Part shown: one piece after another, positions 16,621 through 23,648 of the stretch
Layout of the letters: the number at the start of each line of letters is the position of its first letter
How positions within the stretch are numbered: the first letter of the stretch is position 1
Translations under genes and position numbers: made by a program
Notes under the pieces: model-generated
Seen by the model: the letters and a program-made list of their open reading frames with translations, nothing else
What the model was told of the DNA's origin: nothing
Database searches by the model: none
Assembly (NCBI GenBank): GCA_903925015.1
Contig: CAIYDY010000441.1
Coordinates: 62,001-126,000 of the forward strand
Direction: 5' to 3'
Length of the DNA: 64,000 nt
DNA from: an uncultured Acidobacteriia bacterium
Lineage (GTDB): Bacteria; Acidobacteriota; Terriglobia; Bryobacterales; Bryobacteraceae

Positions 16621-17787
16621 TCAGAACTCGCGCACCTGCTGCAGGTAGCCCTCGTAATTTCGTTTTGCCTCAACGAGCGAATCGCCGCCGAATTTTTCCA
16701 GCATGGCTCCTGCCAGTACGATTGCCACCATGGATTCACCAATCACCCCGGCTGCCGGAACGACACAGACATCGGAGCGCTCATAGGCCGCCTTTGAAGG
16801 TTCGCGTGTCTCCAAGTCCACTGATTCCAACGGCCGCCGGAGAGTTGAAATCGGCTTCAGGAAGCCGCGCACGCGTAATTCCTCGCCATTGGTCATGCCG
16901 CCTTCGATTCCACCGGCGCGGTTGTTGCCCCGATAGAACTCCCGGTCATCCTTCCGGTAGTGAATGGTGTCCTGAACCTTGGACCCGAAACTGGCCGCGC
17001 CCTCCTCGGCACTGCCAATTTCCACACCCTTCACCGCCTGCATCGACACGATGGCCTGCGCCAGCTTGCCATCCAAGCGGGAATCCCAGGTGGCATGGGA
17101 GCCCAAGCCCACGGGCAAGCCACGGGCGACCACTTCAAAGATGCCGCCTGCGGTGTCGCCGGTGCGGTAGGCTTCATCCACGAAGCCCTTCATCTGCTGC
17201 TCCACCTCGGGATCGACGCAACCGAGAAGCACTTCCGATTTCTTGTTGAGCTCCACGATTTCTTCCCAAGTGGCGGCTCGCGGCATCCGAACGGGGCCCA
17301 CCGCGATCACGTGGCTCAAAATCCCGATGCCGAACTCCGCCAGATACTGCTTGGCGATGGCTCCGATGGCCACGCGGGCCGTGGTTTCGCGCGCACTGGC
17401 ACGCTCCAGGATGTAACGGGCGTCCGGGAAATTGTATTTGATCGCACCGGAAAGATCGGCGTGGCCAGGACGTGGGCGAGACACGGGCTTGTGCAGCGAC
17501 ATGTCACCGGGCGTCACCGGCAGCGATTCCGTCCAGTTTTTCCAATCGGCATTGGCAATCACCATGCCGATCGGCGCACCGATTGTCTGGCCATGGCGCA
17601 CGCCTGCCACGATCGAGACGCGGTCGGTCTCAATCTTCATGCGGCCGCCTCGGCCAAATCCCTGTTGCCTGCGCCAGAGTTCGTGGTTGATCGCCTCTTG
17701 GGCGATTGGTATGCCGGAAGGGAGCCCAGTCAGGGTTGCGAGCAGACACTCGCCATGGGACTCTCCCGCCGTTTCAAAGCGGAACAT
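16621..17787 (-). CDS. aroC: Chorismate synthase
   Basis: 388 residues from the ATG at 17787 (MFRFETAGESHGECLL, the usual N-terminus); a TTG four codons upstream is less likely. It makes chorismate from EPSP with FMN. Family signatures: GESHGE at the start, GRGGRMKIETDRV, SRPRPGHADLSGAIKY, RASARETTARVAIGAI and NNRAGGIEGGMTNGE. A perfect -10 TATAAT lies 14 bases upstream of the ATG, so the leader is only a few bases. It heads the run aroC-def-fmt-argJ. Confidence 0.97.
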   Translation of the reverse strand: MFRFETAGESHGECLLATLTGLPSGIPIAQEAINHELWRRQQGFGRGGRMKIETDRVSIVAGVRHGQTIGAPIGMVIANADWKNWTESLPVTPGDMSLHKPVSRPRPGHADLSGAIKYNFPDARYILERASARETTARVAIGAIAKQYLAEFGIGILSHVIAVGPVRMPRAATWEEIVELNKKSEVLLGCVDPEVEQQMKGFVDEAYRTGDTAGGIFEVVARGLPVGLGSHATWDSRLDGKLAQAIVSMQAVKGVEIGSAEEGAASFGSKVQDTIHYRKDDREFYRGNNRAGGIEGGMTNGEELRVRGFLKPISTLRRPLESVDLETREPSKAAYERSDVCVVPAAGVIGESMVAIVLAGAMLEKFGGDSLVEAKRNYEGYLQQVREF

Positions 17788-17801
17788 TTTCTGAACCAAA
17801 C

Positions 17802-17807
17802 ATTATA
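17802..17807 (-). promoter_or_regulatory. Consensus -10 box upstream of aroC
   Basis: TATAAT on the minus strand, 14 bases before the aroC ATG. A good -35 is not evident at 17 bases. The predicted start would leave a leader of about 8 bases. Confidence 0.5.
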
Positions 17808-17906
17808 GGTTGAACTACTATGTTGACAGAAAAACGGGATTTCCGCCAGTCCCCCCTACCTTGGGCAGGTCGAGGAGTCCGCAGACTGTGCTAGCTTAAT
17901 AGACGA

Positions 17907-18290
17907 ATGAGTACATTTTCATCCACGGATACGTTCCGCCGGACGATCTGCTCATTGCTGCTGTTCCTATTCGCTTGGCAGGCGGCTGCCCCGATTGCCT
18001 TGGCCTCGGTCCAGGACGGCGGGATGGCCTGTTGCCGCCGTTTGCACGGCAAACACACGTGTTGCGACCATTTCAAGCGGTCCGACACGCCCGTTCTCAG
18101 CGAGGCTCGGGGTTGTGGTGGCGATTGCGATTCCGTGGCTCCCGGTGATTCGCCGGTCTTTAGCCGCAATTTGCCAACCGCTTTCACCCACCCGGACAGC
18201 ACCCCGCTCGGACTTTTGACGGTCACGCGTAACTTCGTCGCCGCACAACTCTCCGTAGATTTCCTCCAACGTCCGCCACCCGCTGCCTAG
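17907..18290 (+). CDS. Small secreted Cys/His-rich protein, first of a related pair
   Basis: 127 residues. The N-terminus is a signal peptide (RRTICSLLLFLFAWQAAAPI) with a cut likely after LAS. The mature part has MACCRRLHGKHTCCDHFKR and GCGGDCDS, two dense Cys clusters suited to metal binding or disulfides, and it ends in FLQRPPPAA. The next gene (18347) has the same plan and ending, so the two look like diverged duplicates. Small exported proteins with CC/H clusters often sit beside copper or heavy-metal genes; that link is inference here. It begins a plus-strand cluster with an Oar-like receptor and a CxCC propeller. Confidence 0.65.
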   Translation: MSTFSSTDTFRRTICSLLLFLFAWQAAAPIALASVQDGGMACCRRLHGKHTCCDHFKRSDTPVLSEARGCGGDCDSVAPGDSPVFSRNLPTAFTHPDSTPLGLLTVTRNFVAAQLSVDFLQRPPPAA

Positions 18291-18346
18291 CCCAGATCCG
18301 CATTTTCTCCAGTCCATCCGTATTCACGTTCCGGACTCAGACTCTT

Positions 18347-18784
18347 ATGCATCCGTTTGCACGCGCTTCCGCATTTTGGCGGCGCGGAGGTTTCATTTCC
18401 TCCGTGCGGATGCGGAACTGCGTCGCAATCCTTCTTTTGGCCGCGTTCGCGTTTGGGATCGCCGCACCCGCCATCCAAGCCGCGACTGCGTCTGAAACGG
18501 CTTGCACCTGCTGCAAAGACATGGCCAAGGGTTCGTGCCATCGGAAAGGGCACTCCGGCAGCCATCAGCCTGATGAACCCGCTTGGCGCGCTGGCACCTG
18601 TTCCACGGAATGCGCCTGCGATGGCACCTCACCCGATTCGGTATCCCTAACTGCAAACCAACCCTCGGCCTGCACGCACCTATTCCCAAAGTTCCTCTCG
18701 TCCTGTTCCGGAACCCGGTTCCCCGGTCCACCTTCGTCCGAGCTCACCCGATTTCAACGTCCCCCGCCAACCTGCCCGGCCTAA
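18347..18784 (+). CDS. Small secreted Cys/His-rich protein, second of a related pair
   Basis: 145 residues from the first ATG; translation may instead begin at the ATG at 18410 (MRNC), which gives a more typical signal peptide (VAILLLAAFAFGIAAPAIQA). The mature part has ACTCCKDMAKGSCHRKGHSG, then TCSTECACDG, further Cys (SACTHLF, SSCSG), and ends FQRPPPTCPA. Order of clusters and the RPPP tail match the neighbour at 17907. Eleven or so mature Cys plus several His make metal binding plausible. A 57-base gap separates it from the preceding gene, and the receptor gene starts 57 bases after it. Confidence 0.65.
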   Translation: MHPFARASAFWRRGGFISSVRMRNCVAILLLAAFAFGIAAPAIQAATASETACTCCKDMAKGSCHRKGHSGSHQPDEPAWRAGTCSTECACDGTSPDSVSLTANQPSACTHLFPKFLSSCSGTRFPGPPSSELTRFQRPPPTCPA

Positions 18785-18841
18785 TTCCGTCCTAACGCGG
18801 ATTTTGCACGCAGCCAAACAGGTTGAAACGGGAGACGAAGG

Positions 18842-21667
18842 ATGAAAAGAGCTTCGAAGACGGTATTTCTATTTATGGCAGGGCTAGCCGCAAGCGCCGC
18901 CAATGCCCAGCAATCGGTTAATTACGCCACCATCGGCGGATTGGTGACCGATGCAACCGGCGCCACCATCGAGGGCGCGGACATCGCGGTCAGGCAAATC
19001 GACACCAATATTTCCACCACCGCACGCACCAACCACGATGGGCGCTATCTTTTGCCCTATTTGAAGGTGGGCCGCTACGAGGTTTCCGCCCGAAAGACCG
19101 GATTCCAGGAAGCGATCCGGCCCGTGACGCTCACGGTGGGGGCGGCCTTCGACCTGCCGTTCTCCCTGGTCGTCGGACAAGCCGAAACCCGGGTCGAAGT
19201 GAGCGGGGAGCCGCCTCTGATCGAGACATCCCGAACGCAGGTGGCCGGAACGATCTCCCAGGCCGAGGTGCGGAACCTGCCGATGAACGGTCGGAACTAC
19301 CTCGACCTAGCGCTTTTTGTGCCGGGCGTTTCAGCGACCAATACGGCATCCAACCAACTATTCGCCGAGACCTCGGCCATACCCGGCCAGGGAATCTCTG
19401 TCGGGAGCCAACGGAATTTCTCCAACAGCTTTATCATCGATGGCGTAAGCGCAAATGACGACGCCGCGGGCCTGGCCGGAACCTTTGTCGGGGTCGATGT
19501 GGTGCAGGAATTCCAAGTGGTGACCTCGGGGGGACAGGCCGAATTCGGGCGCGCGCTCGGCGGCTACATCAATCTGGTCACAAAGAGCGGCGGTAACACC
19601 CTGCACGGGGATCTCTACGGTTATTTCAAGAACAGCCGTTTCAACGCGGCAAACGCCCTTTCCAATACGGTTCTGCCGCTGACGCAAGCCCAGTCTGGCG
19701 GCAGCATTTCGGGACCGGTGGCCCGCGACAGAACGTTCTACTTCACGAATTTCGAGTCGAGGCAGCTGAACCAATCTGGCTTCAGCACCATCACGCCAGC
19801 CAATGTGGCAGCAATCAACGCGCGCTTGGCCGCCGTGAAGTACCCCGGCCCACCTGTTACCACCGGCCAGTACCGGAATCCGATACACAGTCAGACGTTC
19901 CTCGCCAAGGCCGACCACCGTTTCAGCGCCAAGGACCAGTTCACGGCCCGCTACAACCTCTACCATGTGGCGAGCCTGAATTCACGTGGTGCCGGGGCCC
20001 TGAACGCACCCACCGCTTCTGCCAACCTGTTCGACACGGACCAGACCCTGACCGCCAGCAATGTCGCCACCATCTCGCCCCGGATGGTGAACGAAACACG
20101 AATTCAGTTCACCAACAGCAGTCTGGCTGCGCCGCCCTCGGATCCGGTGGGGCCCGCCGTCAGCATTTCGGGCATTGCCACGTTCGGCACGCTTTCCGGC
20201 TCTCCCACCGGCCGGCTGAACAGGCTATTTGAGGTGACCGATAGCCTGTCGGTGCAGCAGGGGGCGCACGCGCTTCGGGTCGGCGCCGACTTTCTTTACA
20301 ACAACGACACGATCACTTTTCCACGCACCAACCGAGGCAGCTACACCTTCTCCTCATTAGCCAACTTTCTCAGCGGTACCTACGCGAATTCCGGTTTCGC
20401 ACAGACCTTCGGCGTCACGCAGGTCCATCAAACGAATCCGAATCTTGGCATCTACGCCCAGGACGAATACAAAGTCACGCGCGACCTGACGCTCAATCTC
20501 GGTATCCGGTACGACCTGGAGTGGCTCCAAACCATTGCCACGCAAAAGGGCAATATCTCCCCGCGTGCCGGATTTGCTTGGTCGCCGGTCGGCTCCCGAC
20601 GGACAGTGTTCCGTGGCAGTTTCGGCCTCTTCTATGACCGGCTCCCGCTCCGTCCGCTTGCAAATGCGATGCTTTCCGCCGTGAACTCGACCGTGGTAGG
20701 AAATCTGCAGCAATCCAGCATCAGCCTTTCCCCGACCCAGGCCGGAGCACCGGTTTTCCCCTCCATTTTGGCCACGCTGACGATACCACCCGGAGTGCTG
20801 TTCAATTTCACCACCATGAATCCCCGGATGCGCAACGCATATTCGGAACAAGGCAGCTTTGAAGTGGAACAGCAGGTGGGCAAGTCGGCCACCGTTAGCG
20901 CGGGCTACCAGCATGTGCGGGGCGTCCACTTGATCATTTCGGTGAACCAGAACGTACCGTCGTGCGCCGCAGTCGGAACGAATAACGGTTGCCGACCGAA
21001 TTCGGCGTACGGGAACAACAGCCAGTACTCGTCCCTGGCCGATTCGCGCTACGACGGCGGGCACGTGAGTTTTGTCCAGCGTCCGGTGAAATGGGGCAAC
21101 TACCGCGTTTCGTACACCTACTCCAAGGCGCTGAACAATGTTGGGGAGAATTTCTTTAGCTCGCCGCTGAATCCGTTCAACATTTGGCAGGACTATGGCC
21201 GGTCAGACGACGACCAGCGCAGCCGGTTCGCCATGGAGGGTACGGCGCATACGGCCACAGGCCCCGCGCATTCCATGCTGGGGCGGATCAGCCACGGGCT
21301 CCAACTGAGCACCTCGTTGACGGCCTACTCCGCGCTGCCGTTCAACATCACCTCCGGCGTCACCACGATTCAAGGCACTGCCGGGCGTCCCGTCGTCAAC
21401 GGGAACTTCATTGACCGCAATCTGGGCACAAGTTTCGCCCAGTGGAATTGGAACGCGCGACTCAGCCGAACCTTTGCAATCGGCGAACGGATGAAGCTCC
21501 AGGCAATGGCCGAAGGCTTCAATTTGCTGAACCACACGAATGTGGTCCAAGTGAACGGTACTTTCGGGGCGGGGGCTTACCCCTCGGCACCCAACACCAC
21601 GTTCCGCCAGATTCTGGCCGTCAACGACCCCCGGACGCTTCAGTTTGCGCTCCGGCTGGGTTTCTAG
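18842..21667 (+). CDS. Oar-like TonB-dependent outer-membrane receptor
   Basis: 941 residues. Signal peptide at 1-22 (VFLFMAGLAASAANAQ). An N-terminal carboxypeptidase-regulatory-like domain (ATIGGLVTDATGATIEGADI, then DGRYLLPYLKVGRYEVSARK) is followed by a plug region (EVRNLPMNGRNYLDLALFVP, IDGVSANDD) and a long beta-barrel ending in an aromatic residue (LQFALRLGF), as outer-membrane proteins do. This architecture is greatly expanded in Solibacter-type Acidobacteria. A GGGAG ribosome-binding site precedes the ATG. Genes on both sides encode Cys-rich exported proteins, suggesting a shared ligand, perhaps a metal. Confidence 0.88.
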   Translation: MKRASKTVFLFMAGLAASAANAQQSVNYATIGGLVTDATGATIEGADIAVRQIDTNISTTARTNHDGRYLLPYLKVGRYEVSARKTGFQEAIRPVTLTVGAAFDLPFSLVVGQAETRVEVSGEPPLIETSRTQVAGTISQAEVRNLPMNGRNYLDLALFVPGVSATNTASNQLFAETSAIPGQGISVGSQRNFSNSFIIDGVSANDDAAGLAGTFVGVDVVQEFQVVTSGGQAEFGRALGGYINLVTKSGGNTLHGDLYGYFKNSRFNAANALSNTVLPLTQAQSGGSISGPVARDRTFYFTNFESRQLNQSGFSTITPANVAAINARLAAVKYPGPPVTTGQYRNPIHSQTFLAKADHRFSAKDQFTARYNLYHVASLNSRGAGALNAPTASANLFDTDQTLTASNVATISPRMVNETRIQFTNSSLAAPPSDPVGPAVSISGIATFGTLSGSPTGRLNRLFEVTDSLSVQQGAHALRVGADFLYNNDTITFPRTNRGSYTFSSLANFLSGTYANSGFAQTFGVTQVHQTNPNLGIYAQDEYKVTRDLTLNLGIRYDLEWLQTIATQKGNISPRAGFAWSPVGSRRTVFRGSFGLFYDRLPLRPLANAMLSAVNSTVVGNLQQSSISLSPTQAGAPVFPSILATLTIPPGVLFNFTTMNPRMRNAYSEQGSFEVEQQVGKSATVSAGYQHVRGVHLIISVNQNVPSCAAVGTNNGCRPNSAYGNNSQYSSLADSRYDGGHVSFVQRPVKWGNYRVSYTYSKALNNVGENFFSSPLNPFNIWQDYGRSDDDQRSRFAMEGTAHTATGPAHSMLGRISHGLQLSTSLTAYSALPFNITSGVTTIQGTAGRPVVNGNFIDRNLGTSFAQWNWNARLSRTFAIGERMKLQAMAEGFNLLNHTNVVQVNGTFGAGAYPSAPNTTFRQILAVNDPRTLQFALRLGF

Positions 21668-21677
21668 GAGATATCCA

Positions 21678-22757
21678 ATGAACGCAATATTGATTCTGGC
21701 AACTTCGGTGATGGCCGCCACCATGGGCCCCGCGCCGGACAAGACTCCCTACCGGCAGCCGCAACTGGCTGTCGGCGATGGCACGGTAGCGATGGCTTTT
21801 GCAAGCGGTGGATCGGTGATGCTCGCCATGTCTTCCGACCACGGCCAAACTTTTTCGGCACCCGTGAGGGTTTCCGAGTCGCCCGTGCTGGCTGTCGGCC
21901 GCCATCGCGGCCCCCACGTAACCTTTACCGGGCGTGACATGGTGGTCAGCGCCGTGGTCGGGAAGACCTTGGCGACCGGCCAGCACGCCCATGGTTTGCC
22001 CGCGGACGGCGATCTTGTCGTGTGGCGGTCCGCGGACAAGGGCAAGACTTGGTCGAAGCCCGTGATTGTGAACGACGTTTCTGGAGCGGCACGCGAGGGA
22101 CTGCACGCGCTCGCGTCGGACGGCCATGGCCATCTTGCGGCCACATGGCTCGATCTAAGGCAGGCCGGGACGCGGCTCTACGGGGCCTTCTCGAACGATG
22201 GCGGCGCGACGTGGTCGAAAAATATCTTGGTTTACGAAGCGACAGGCGGCACGATCTGCCAGTGTTGCGCCCCCGTGCTTGCTGCGACCGGCACCGGCAA
22301 CTTCACCGTGATGTTCCGGAACGTGGTTGGAGGCAGTCGCGACCTGTATACGCTGGAGTTGCGCGACGGCAAGGTCGCGTCGAGTCCGGTCAAAGTAGGC
22401 CTCGGAACGTGGGAGATCAACGCATGCCCGATGGACGGTGGCGGCATGGTGTATTCCGATGGCAAGCTGGTTAGCGCATGGCGGCGGAGCGACGAGGTTT
22501 ACCTGACCACACCCGATACCCCGGAAACCCGGATCGGCACGGGCGTGGACGTGGTGGTCGCAGTGAGCGGGGGCCAACCCTACGTCGCGTGGCAGAAAGC
22601 GGGTAAGGTGCAGGTGTGGAATGCGGGGAAGACTGAGGTCTTGCAGGAGCAGGGTGGGGCAATGCCGTCCCTTGTGGCGCTACCGGACGGCGGTGTGCTG
22701 GCCGCGTGGGAAACCGATGGTGCCATCCAAACGCGGCGGGTGGGCGAAACGCGATAG
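21678..22757 (+). CDS. Secreted BNR/sialidase-fold propeller with conserved-looking CxCC motif
   Basis: 359 residues from the ATG at 21678, which has AGGAG seven bases upstream (an upstream GTG would overlap the receptor). Signal-like N-terminus AILILATSVMAATMG. Repeats of BNR type are visible: MSSDHGQTFSAPV, RSADKGKTWSKPV, FSNDGGATWSKNI. A Cys cluster (GGTICQCCAPVLA) and a later NACPMDGGGMV are not part of a sialidase active site, and the Arg triad is not evident, so sialidase activity is doubtful. The Cys suggest metal or haem-like binding or disulfides. It begins 10 bases after the receptor stop. Its last codons lie in a duplicated segment also found before tRNA-Leu. Confidence 0.75.
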   Translation: MNAILILATSVMAATMGPAPDKTPYRQPQLAVGDGTVAMAFASGGSVMLAMSSDHGQTFSAPVRVSESPVLAVGRHRGPHVTFTGRDMVVSAVVGKTLATGQHAHGLPADGDLVVWRSADKGKTWSKPVIVNDVSGAAREGLHALASDGHGHLAATWLDLRQAGTRLYGAFSNDGGATWSKNILVYEATGGTICQCCAPVLAATGTGNFTVMFRNVVGGSRDLYTLELRDGKVASSPVKVGLGTWEINACPMDGGGMVYSDGKLVSAWRRSDEVYLTTPDTPETRIGTGVDVVVAVSGGQPYVAWQKAGKVQVWNAGKTEVLQEQGGAMPSLVALPDGGVLAAWETDGAIQTRRVGETR

Positions 22758-22809
22758 AATTGGGAAGCGGTTCCCCGCACACGGAAATGCCGGGTGGGGG
22801 CGGCGAAAC
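22731..22809 (+). repeat. Direct repeat, left copy, with decayed tRNA-Leu 5' end
   Basis: The first 33 bases are identical to 23573-23605, and the rest is a diverged match with small indels. The last ~22 bases (from 22788) correspond to the first 16 bases of tRNA-Leu in the right copy. The left part contains the last nine codons of the propeller gene. The repeats flank the DUF104/vapC locus. Confidence 0.8.
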
Positions 22810-23284
22810 TCACTCTTGGATCAAGCCGGGATTCGCAGGGTCAACCGCCGGGCATCCGCAAGTTTCAGCCACTTCGCAAAGTCGCTTGTCGGCTGAAATC
22901 ATTACTGAAATCCGGGATGCCTCCAGCATATCTAAAGCAACCGCGAGTTGCAGAGCATCAAGGGTCCTCAGGCCCCGCGATACCCCGTGAAGCCTCAGCA
23001 GTTTTGCACGGAGCGATAGTGTTTCGGTTCAATGGGCGGTCCGACCAGTAGCCGATCCTGCGCAATGTCTGCTCGAAGCCGTCGCAGGGCCAGGGATCGC
23101 CCGTTCTCATCGAGCGCGCCGGTTCGGACCTTAATCGCAAATACGGACTCCATCTCGACCAAGGATAGTCGAGACACGATTCCTTTAGATCTTGGCTGGT
23201 GCAAAATACTCTCGACGTGGTCTGAGCCTATTTCTTGTGGTAGAGCTTGGCCAGAGCGCTGGTGTCAAGGAAATGGCCGGTCAA
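22810..23284 (-). pseudogene. VapC-like PIN-domain toxin broken by two frameshifts
   Basis: Three successive reading frames join into one PIN protein of about 158 residues. Frame one starts at the TTG directly after the antitoxin stop and reads TGHFLDTSALAKLYHK (first catalytic Asp), then hits TAG at 23228-23230. Frame two continues EIGSDHVESILHQP through VEMESVFAIK to a stop at 22995-22997. Frame three gives LLRLHGVSRGLRTLDALQLA and VMISADKRLCEVAE, with the later PIN acidic residues. Each break is explained by one missing base, the first near 23235 and the second near 23003. The active toxin cannot be made without recoding. Confidence 0.85.
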
Positions 23285-23539: not shown

Positions 23540-23572
23540 GTCATTCAGTTTAGCGAATTCTGGACGGGCGAA

Positions 23573-23648
23573 ACGCGGCGGGTGGGCGAAACGCGATAGA
23601 ATTGGAAGGCGGTTCCCAGCACCCCGAAATATGCCCGGGTGGCGAAAC
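23573..23648 (+). repeat. Direct repeat, right copy, running into tRNA-Leu
   Basis: Right-hand copy of the segment at 22731-22809. It ends with the first 16 bases of tRNA-Leu, so the repeated unit includes the tRNA's upstream region. It also holds a 12-base tandem (GGGCGAAACGCG) at 23566-23577 and 23583-23594. Confidence 0.8.

Follow-up and report, generated by a model that had tools for sequence, protein, structure and literature searches.

In Rhodobacter capsulatus, the CxxxC and the proline motif of the small protein CutF control CutO via a hairpin, and CutF-like proteins that carry His motifs only precede nickel/cobalt-type HupE/UreJ genes (PMC9973294). In Bordetella pertussis, a TonB receptor gene depends on both the RAPP and the CXXC of CruR for its expression and its control by copper, and loss of elongation factor P (EF-P) is without effect in that system (PMC9426467). 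RAPP and RGPP leaders ahead of TonB receptor genes have been reported across Gram-negative bacteria (PMC12992588, PMC10987492), with Acidobacteriota among the phyla whose motif frequencies have been plotted (PMC12992588), and RPPP gave the strongest XPPP stall in NlpD and fell into the strong group in a second protein (PMC4176338). Here we describe a four-gene locus from an uncultured Acidobacteriia bacterium (assembly GCA_903925015.1, contig CAIYDY010000441.1, positions 62,001 to 126,000; this 64,000-nucleotide (nt) stretch is hereafter the window) and compare it with these systems as they are presented in selected parts of six articles (PMC9973294, PMC9426467, PMC12914433, PMC12992588, PMC10987492 and PMC4176338). 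At this locus two small Cys-rich open reading frames (ORFs), P1 and P2, precede the genes of an Oar-like receptor and a beta-propeller. From sequence comparison, we think it likely that P1 and P2 belong to the CutF/CruR type of metal-sensing leader ORFs and would control the receptor and the propeller, most likely in response to copper. The features that bear on this proposal are the following (window positions).

17907-18290, + strand: P1, a small, apparently exported, Cys-rich upstream ORF of 127 amino acids, with CC..CC, a CxxxC (C70/C74) and the end QRPPPAA
18114-18128, + strand: CGGDC motif of P1, with C70 52 and C74 48 residues ahead of the RPPP Arg
18270-18281, + strand: RPPP codons of P1, a putative ribosome arrest site
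18347-18784, + strand: P2, the second small, apparently exported, Cys-rich upstream ORF, 145 amino acids, with the end QRPPPTCPA
18386-18403, + strand: GGAGG/CCTCC hairpin over the probable P2 Shine-Dalgarno sequence, predicted to stay closed whether or not a ribosome occupies the P1 RPPP
18599-18613, + strand: CSTEC motif of P2, with C85 53 and C89 49 residues ahead of the RPPP Arg
18758-18769, + strand: RPPP codons of P2, a putative arrest site that also contributes to the 5' arm of a predicted hairpin
18758-18841, + strand: predicted hairpin in which the P2 RPPP and next codons (CGTC, CCCG, CAACCTG) pair with the receptor Shine-Dalgarno region (CAGGTTG, CGGG, GACG)
18842-21667, + strand: Oar-like TonB-type outer-membrane receptor, 941 amino acids, proposed regulated gene
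21678-22757, + strand: beta-propeller (359 amino acids when read from the ATG at 21678), proposed as a regulated gene and as a metal-binding partner
22257-22268, + strand: CQCC motif of the propeller, whose C194, C196 and C197 do not vary in either propeller alignment (21 and 31 sequences)
22425-22430, + strand: C250-P251 within NACPMDGG of the propeller, invariant in both propeller alignments

The initial annotation had seen here four same-strand genes with tight gaps, and the ORFs are indeed as it had them, all on the + strand and separated by 56 nt (P1 to P2), 57 nt (P2 to receptor) and 10 nt (receptor to propeller, counted from 21678). The start of P2 is uncertain (18347, 18404 with GTG, or 18410, the last favoured by the homologues), and the propeller ORF could alternatively span 21645-22757, giving 370 amino acids from TTG. 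The small proteins had been described as related, with CC/H clusters and shared RPPP ends. This is borne out by a weak likeness between them (31% identity across 131 aligned columns, BLASTP E 0.001), by the CC/H clusters and CxxxC that both carry (CGGDC in P1, CSTEC in P2), and by ends that consist of QRPPP plus two residues in P1 and four in P2. A hydrophobic N-terminus is visible by eye in the alignments of both types of small protein distinguished below.

The same annotation held that no known family name fits the set, and for the small proteins this was mistaken, as four of six features that define or accompany CutF-like proteins in PMC9973294 are clearly present. At 127 and 145 amino acids, P1 and P2 are shorter than the limit of 150; PP lies within the last 15 residues, the RPPP standing two and four residues ahead of the stop; the next gene follows on the same strand well within 1000 nt (56 and 57 nt); and the CutF copper motif, a CxxxC about 45 amino acids before the proline motif, has its counterparts in CGGDC and CSTEC, 48-53 residues before the Arg. 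The small proteins are best read as CutF-like by most of the rules tested and not as members of DUF2946/CruR.

To follow these proteins through related genomes, a set of 101 genomes of the same family was searched with the propeller (E<=0.001) and with P1 and P2 (at the loose limit E<=1). The propeller found matches in 63 genomes, P1 in 78 and P2 in 60, the matches of the small proteins being mostly weak and some surely due to chance. In 60 stretches taken around propeller or small-protein positions in this set, small Cys-rich ORFs with a PP near the stop occur about 2.8-3.0 kilobases (kb) upstream of propellers, with the receptor gene between. They fall into a type A (...ACCR..HSCC...CGxxC...QRPPP; 14 alignment rows) and a type B (...LPACCRRDGKHHC...C...KRGPP; 12 alignment rows). 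Among 297 genomes of the phylum, profile A matched 39 and profile B 35 at E<=0.01, and 36 more stretches, all from outside the window's family, were taken. Our homologue set comprises 70 small ORFs (profile E<=1e-5, at most 240 amino acids), some rows being near-duplicates.

The ending of these proteins and its distance from a cysteine carry most of the argument. R-x-P-P stands 2-11 residues ahead of the stop in 69 of the 70 homologues (48 RGPP, 16 RPPP and 5 RAPP), the sole exception being L238, and all 69 have a Cys 51-54 residues ahead of that Arg (mean 52.6, standard deviation 0.8; where several Cys lay within 50-56 residues, the one closest to 53 was counted). In contrast, the spacing from the CC pair to this ruler Cys ranges from 18 to 55 with a standard deviation of 5.5. 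Over the linker, taken as the 48 residues ahead of the Arg, pairwise identity averages 0.10 among the 21 RPPP/RAPP rows and 0.19 among the 48 RGPP rows; the latter show partial conservation of their last 20 residues (0.26). A conserved C-terminal R-x-P-P at a fixed distance from a cysteine marks the small proteins as probable regulatory nascent chains.

Because the seeds had been picked with a PP filter, we built a separate profile of 19 rows that was confined to the signal and Cys region, with neither linker nor RxPP. It matched 69 of 200 genomes of the class at E<=0.001, and each of the 30 loci kept from this search, six of them being seed loci, has an RGPP or RPPP ending and the same Cys distance. 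When the motif alone was sought upstream of 80 propeller loci of a second collection (13 of them with less than 3.6 kb of upstream sequence), such ORFs were found at 28 loci, 27 of them credible and all within the 38 loci L247-L284; the RAPP match at L293 was discarded as a likely chance ORF. On the opposite strand of the same 80 loci, R-x-P-P together with the Cys distance was found at none and R[AGP]PP alone at two. Several contigs are common to this collection and the family and phylum set, and the two sets are therefore not independent. The RPPP end and the Cys spacing exceed chance, recurring across dozens of homologues against none in 80 control loci.

What follows the small ORFs is most often a receptor gene. 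Counting ORFs with a profile or phmmer match and a possible start from 60 nt before to 320 nt after the stop, we found the 69 small ORFs followed by a receptor homologue in 50 cases, by a further small ORF in 8 and by a propeller in 3, the remaining 8 being followed by none of the three. The receptors are either close, Oar-like ones or proteins of about 760-810 amino acids with weak similarity. At the 30 receptor loci of the class search, a leader was found at 10 of 15 with at least 45% receptor identity and at 0 of 15 below 45%; the five leaderless loci of the first group include a fragment lacking its 5' end (L381) and one with about 400 nt upstream (L370), and one locus of the second group has about 260 nt upstream (L377). 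Elsewhere the next gene encodes a PepSY_TM protein with a Met/His-rich loop (L228) or a protein with a CusF domain above cut-off (L241). The complete order of small protein, receptor and propeller is present in 12 of 46 same-family stretches around propellers (L091-L136). In a genome of the window's genus (G041), a small RPPP protein stands directly ahead of the propeller and a small RGPP protein ahead of the receptor, from which it follows that each target can have its own leader; another genome of the genus (G097; L106) has a propeller without a small ORF and the receptor on the other strand.

These counts also bear on the idea, put forward in the initial annotation, that the four genes form one system, with homologues of the small proteins occurring without the other two genes as the finding that would speak against it. 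The neighbourhood is real, as the same-family stretches show, and to that extent the idea stands. An obligate trio is rejected, since the small protein is found without a propeller match (E<=1e-3) in 34 of the 36 stretches outside the window's family, where a search with a single sequence may miss distant relatives (a CPCC propeller at L140 was spotted by eye only), and a few small proteins precede PepSY_TM, CusF-domain or cytochrome-like genes. Judged from these gene orders, the small proteins probably form a portable regulator and are not bound to the other genes as a trio. Likewise, of the surface system for a soft metal or thiol ligand that had been suggested, the soft-metal or thiol theme is likely to be right; the R-x-P-P end and the fixed spacing speak against the small proteins as a structural surface pair.

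At the junction of P2 and the receptor, the predicted mRNA fold has an energy of -39.1 kcal/mol, which 9 of 200 shuffles equal (z -1.87). When the P2 RPPP is masked as by a stalled ribosome, the mean unpaired probability of the receptor Shine-Dalgarno sequence and start is predicted to rise from 0.35 to 0.52. Across 44 selected pairs (six near-duplicate loci, junctions above 230 nt and small-to-small junctions being excluded), duplexes between the true RxPP codons and Shine-Dalgarno regions are stronger than swapped ones (-11.9 vs -10.5). Swap permutations were as low in 0 of 20000 cases in a first run and 1 of 20000 in a second, in 13 of 20000 without this locus, and in 143 and 55 of 20000 when permuted within the two groups separately. 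The pair of this locus ranks first for its partner among the 44.

We therefore suggest the following course of events, in which copper is our best guess at the sensed metal. P1 and P2 would each be exported during synthesis, and with the ribosome at the R-P-P-P near the stop, about 50 residues would lie between the peptidyl centre and the CxxxC, which at that moment would be just at or across the Sec channel. A metal, most likely Cu(I), bound or unbound at the cysteines would then alter the duration of the stall at RPPP; the response might be induction or repression. The P2 RPPP codons would form part of the hairpin arm that hides the ribosome-binding site of the receptor gene, and a ribosome parked on them would leave the hairpin open, allowing the receptor and, through it, the propeller to be translated. 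The Oar-like receptor and the propeller, with its CxCC and further C, could in turn serve in the uptake or binding of copper, as such or as a chelate.

The P1-P2 junction is also strongly structured (z -2.96), and Rho-dependent control, as in CruR, is by analogy possible for P1 acting on P2. A pair of small ORFs is present in 10 of 59 loci, with the two adjacent in 8 of these (L144, L217, L218, L220, L221, L226, L239 and this locus). Such pairs occur also in 5 of the 80 loci of the second collection (L250, L257, L259, L264 and L268), none of which is among the 59 and four of which have RGPP followed by RPPP. More tentatively, and with considerable doubt, we raise the possibility that the two metal-sensing arrest peptides in tandem work one after the other, gating a single operon of Terriglobia (Acidobacteriota) in two steps, with the RPPP codons as the anti-Shine-Dalgarno arm of the receptor hairpin, and that an undescribed copper uptake route is made up of an Oar-type receptor and a Cu(I)-binding CxCC + C propeller of a new class.

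The label 'Oar' given to the receptor at the outset is fair, as the protein matches PF25183 (361 bits, cut-off 30) and CarboxypepD_reg. The motifs GGTICQCC and NACPMDGG reported for the propeller are likewise present, in a protein that scores 38.8 bits against BNR_2 (PF13088, cut-off 31.4) and also above cut-off for BNR. Its CxCC and CP are invariant in an alignment of 21 sequences reaching down to 18% identity and in one of 31 whose titles include Acidobacteria, Planctomycetota and Bacteroidota (L258, with a stop codon, was left out). The closest titled record comes from an uncultured Acidobacteriia metagenome-assembled genome (MAG; 97%, L246), followed mostly by Bryobacterales, Bryobacteraceae and Acidobacteria. 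The AlphaFold2 model of the propeller is confident, with a mean predicted local distance difference test score of 91.9 and a predicted template modelling score of 0.90. Ranked by E-value, sialidases lead the Foldseek matches (E down to 6.5e-12), and ranked by Z, VIA-align gives CylK (31.2; 2.6 A over 313 residues), the Photorhabdus PLL/PHL lectins (about 27-28) and sialidases (about 22). Based on these matches and on analogy with PLL lectins, the propeller probably has seven blades. It shares the fold of these BNR/Asp-box propellers at a sequence identity of 6-18%, and an invariant CxCC and CP are not known to be features of sialidases, PLL/PHL lectins or CylK.

Some relatives of the propeller have copper genes beside them. 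We read nine of the 14 propeller loci whose titles are non-acidobacterial. A multicopper oxidase gene stands directly ahead of the propeller gene in Runella (L318) and Persicitalea (L315); in Runella a gene for a CusA-type pump follows, and a small HYC_CC_PP protein is encoded three genes upstream of the propeller. The gene set of L324 is, by eye, the same, and in Schlesneria (L314) a HMA/CopZ-like gene and a copper P-type ATPase lie near the propeller. At L313 and L320-L323 no copper gene was noticed by eye, few neighbours having been scanned: the six proteins scanned from four of these loci were of DUF6597/AraC, DUF1501, phosphodiesterase-TPR and molybdopterin type, with two unmatched.

Several observations weigh against the proposal that P1 and P2 are copper-sensing leaders. 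Neither P1 nor P2 has a match of any weight in Pfam or NCBIfam, and the DUF2946 profile (PF11162) is not among their families at E<=1 and has no match in the genome of the window. CutF's own proline motif is reported to have given no stall in a SecM-type assay, and RPPP stalling was seen without EF-P, which may relieve the stall in the cell (PMC4176338). No small ORF was found by profile in 33 of the 46 family propeller stretches, some of which have little upstream DNA. The RxPP codons are predicted to pair with the next start region at p>0.5 at 33 of 61 junctions, and the synonymous-codon control of the duplex test is marginal (28 of 44 lower, p 0.039). A simple switch in which P1 opens a hairpin for P2 was rejected, the P2 Shine-Dalgarno sequence being paired with or without a masked ribosome footprint. 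As to the metal, the receptor of this locus does not match the model of the TonB-dependent copper receptor (TIGR01778), whereas one of two other receptors scanned (L231) resembles it at 121 bits (cut-off 472). Four lone acidobacterial propellers, with one neighbour scanned each, showed no copper-type gene, those neighbours being an apiosidase, a URO-D protein, a ceramidase-like protein and a VWA protein. The family scans covered five genes downstream of small ORFs.

Other explanations have to account for the same ending and spacing. P1 and P2 could be stable periplasmic chaperones or buffers for metal, working in trans alongside the receptor and propeller, and being Cys/His-rich, with apparent signal peptides and a place among exported proteins, they have the look of such proteins. 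However, what the homologues keep besides the N-terminal part and the cysteines is the terminal R-x-P-P and its fixed Cys distance, across a linker that varies; a mature chaperone has no evident need for this, and R-P-P-P is a strong stalling motif without EF-P (PMC4176338), which leaves this explanation very improbable in our view. A leader that arrests translation might equally sense secretion activity or redox (disulfide) state, like the Sec/YidC monitors, instead of a metal. RAPP/RGPP endings are common to such monitors, DsbA and thioredoxin genes are also reported to be enriched behind RAPP/RGPP ORFs, and the CC clusters could form disulfides. Against this, the genes that follow encode receptors, PepSY_TM and CusF proteins, no sec gene was noticed among the neighbours scanned, and the CxxxC of the RPPP-type rows matches the copper motif of CutF, so we consider a secretion or redox sensor improbable.

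The identity of the metal can be questioned separately, as P1 and P2 might respond to zinc, nickel, mercury or a thiol or haem ligand. Several soft metals bind Cys/His clusters, the His-only CutF-like proteins of PMC9973294 precede genes of nickel/cobalt type, and the L231 receptor resembles haem receptor models only slightly less than the copper receptor model. The metal-type neighbours that can be named are nevertheless all of copper type (multicopper oxidase, CusA-type pump, CopZ/HMA, Cu P-type ATPase, CusF and PepSY_TM), and we regard a metal or ligand other than copper as unlikely. We thus continue to favour P1 and P2 as copper-responsive leader ORFs.

A number of loci and neighbouring features deserve mention in their own right. 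At L148 (2749-6816) an RGPP and then an RPPP small ORF occur with a gene of 270 amino acids between them and the receptor after, as if each target had its own leader. At L138 (3476-3889) a type A small ORF ending in ERPPPAA is followed not by a receptor but by a small CxxCH protein resembling a c-type cytochrome. At L213 (2344-5703) a small Cys-rich sequence with GRPPP is continuous with the receptor, with no stop, in an open frame of 1119 amino acids, which may be a natural fusion, a case of an internal start or an assembly error. A His-rich small ORF (DDHSHHHEAAAGHAH) at L371 (796-1248), with the end YPPPKQLS, lies ahead of a 47% receptor relative and is perhaps a histidine version of the same sensor; at L362 (650-1123 on the reverse strand) a 62% receptor relative is preceded by a Cys-rich small ORF of another kind, which has a late PP and no RxPP end. 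The title of one MAG contig, Bordetella parapertussis (L273, CALQCC020000030.1), looks wrong, a same-family contig (G024:C30) having the same length of 58695 bases. In the window itself, a 60-nt direct repeat (92%; 22729-22788 and 23571-23630) takes in the final codons of the propeller ORF and the DNA beyond, so that the last residues of the protein sit in the repeat. A divergent ORF lies ahead of the four-gene cluster (16621-17799, - strand), an Rfam scan of 17700-23000 gave no match, and a promoter and terminator scan of the locus was at chance level.

We believe that these results offer a testable function for small proteins, Oar-type receptors and sialidase-like propellers in soil Acidobacteriota, and that they would widen the reach of copper-responsive arrest-peptide control to include RPPP endings and sensors in tandem. 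The 51-54-residue spacing, kept across a variable linker, could serve as a ruler for how metal binding outside the membrane reaches the ribosome. We found no description of this system in the open-access literature, and the points we take to be new are the RPPP ending as putative sensor output and hairpin arm, the tandem sensors, and the CxCC propeller as a candidate regulated partner.

Among known systems, CutF and CutF-like proteins (PMC9973294) are also small and, as P1 and P2 appear to be, exported; they too are encoded immediately upstream of their target on the same strand, and they have a CxxxC about 45-50 residues ahead of a C-terminal proline-rich motif and a hairpin over the next ribosome-binding site, much as here. 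The present locus differs in its target, an Oar-like receptor and not a multicopper oxidase, in its RPPP motif and in having two sensors in tandem; Acidobacteria are not mentioned in the main text of that article. HYC_CC_PP proteins (NF047658) are likewise small and Cys-rich with a late PP, and the Runella protein matches this model (48.8 bits, cut-off 28). Unlike P1 and P2, its late PP is not within an R-x-P-P, and the proteins of the present locus do not match the model. CruR/DUF2946 of B. pertussis (PMC9426467) is, as here, a leader ORF before a TonB-type receptor gene, with a Cys motif and a C-terminal R-x-P-P at fixed spacing (45 intervening residues, against 47-52 here), but it has RAPP where P1 and P2 have RPPP, and a CXXC where they have CxxxC. 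The RAPP/RGPP arrest peptides (PMC12992588, PMC10987492) share the C-terminal R-x-P-P and are likewise small proteins, secretory as P1 and P2 appear to be, encoded before target genes, and since such leaders of TonB receptors are already published, the RGPP relatives found here may be among them. RPPP does not occur in the compared text of PMC12992588 and occurs once in that of PMC10987492, where the motif was sought in E. coli and B. subtilis, whereas at the locus described here RPPP ends Cys-bearing leaders of a receptor gene.

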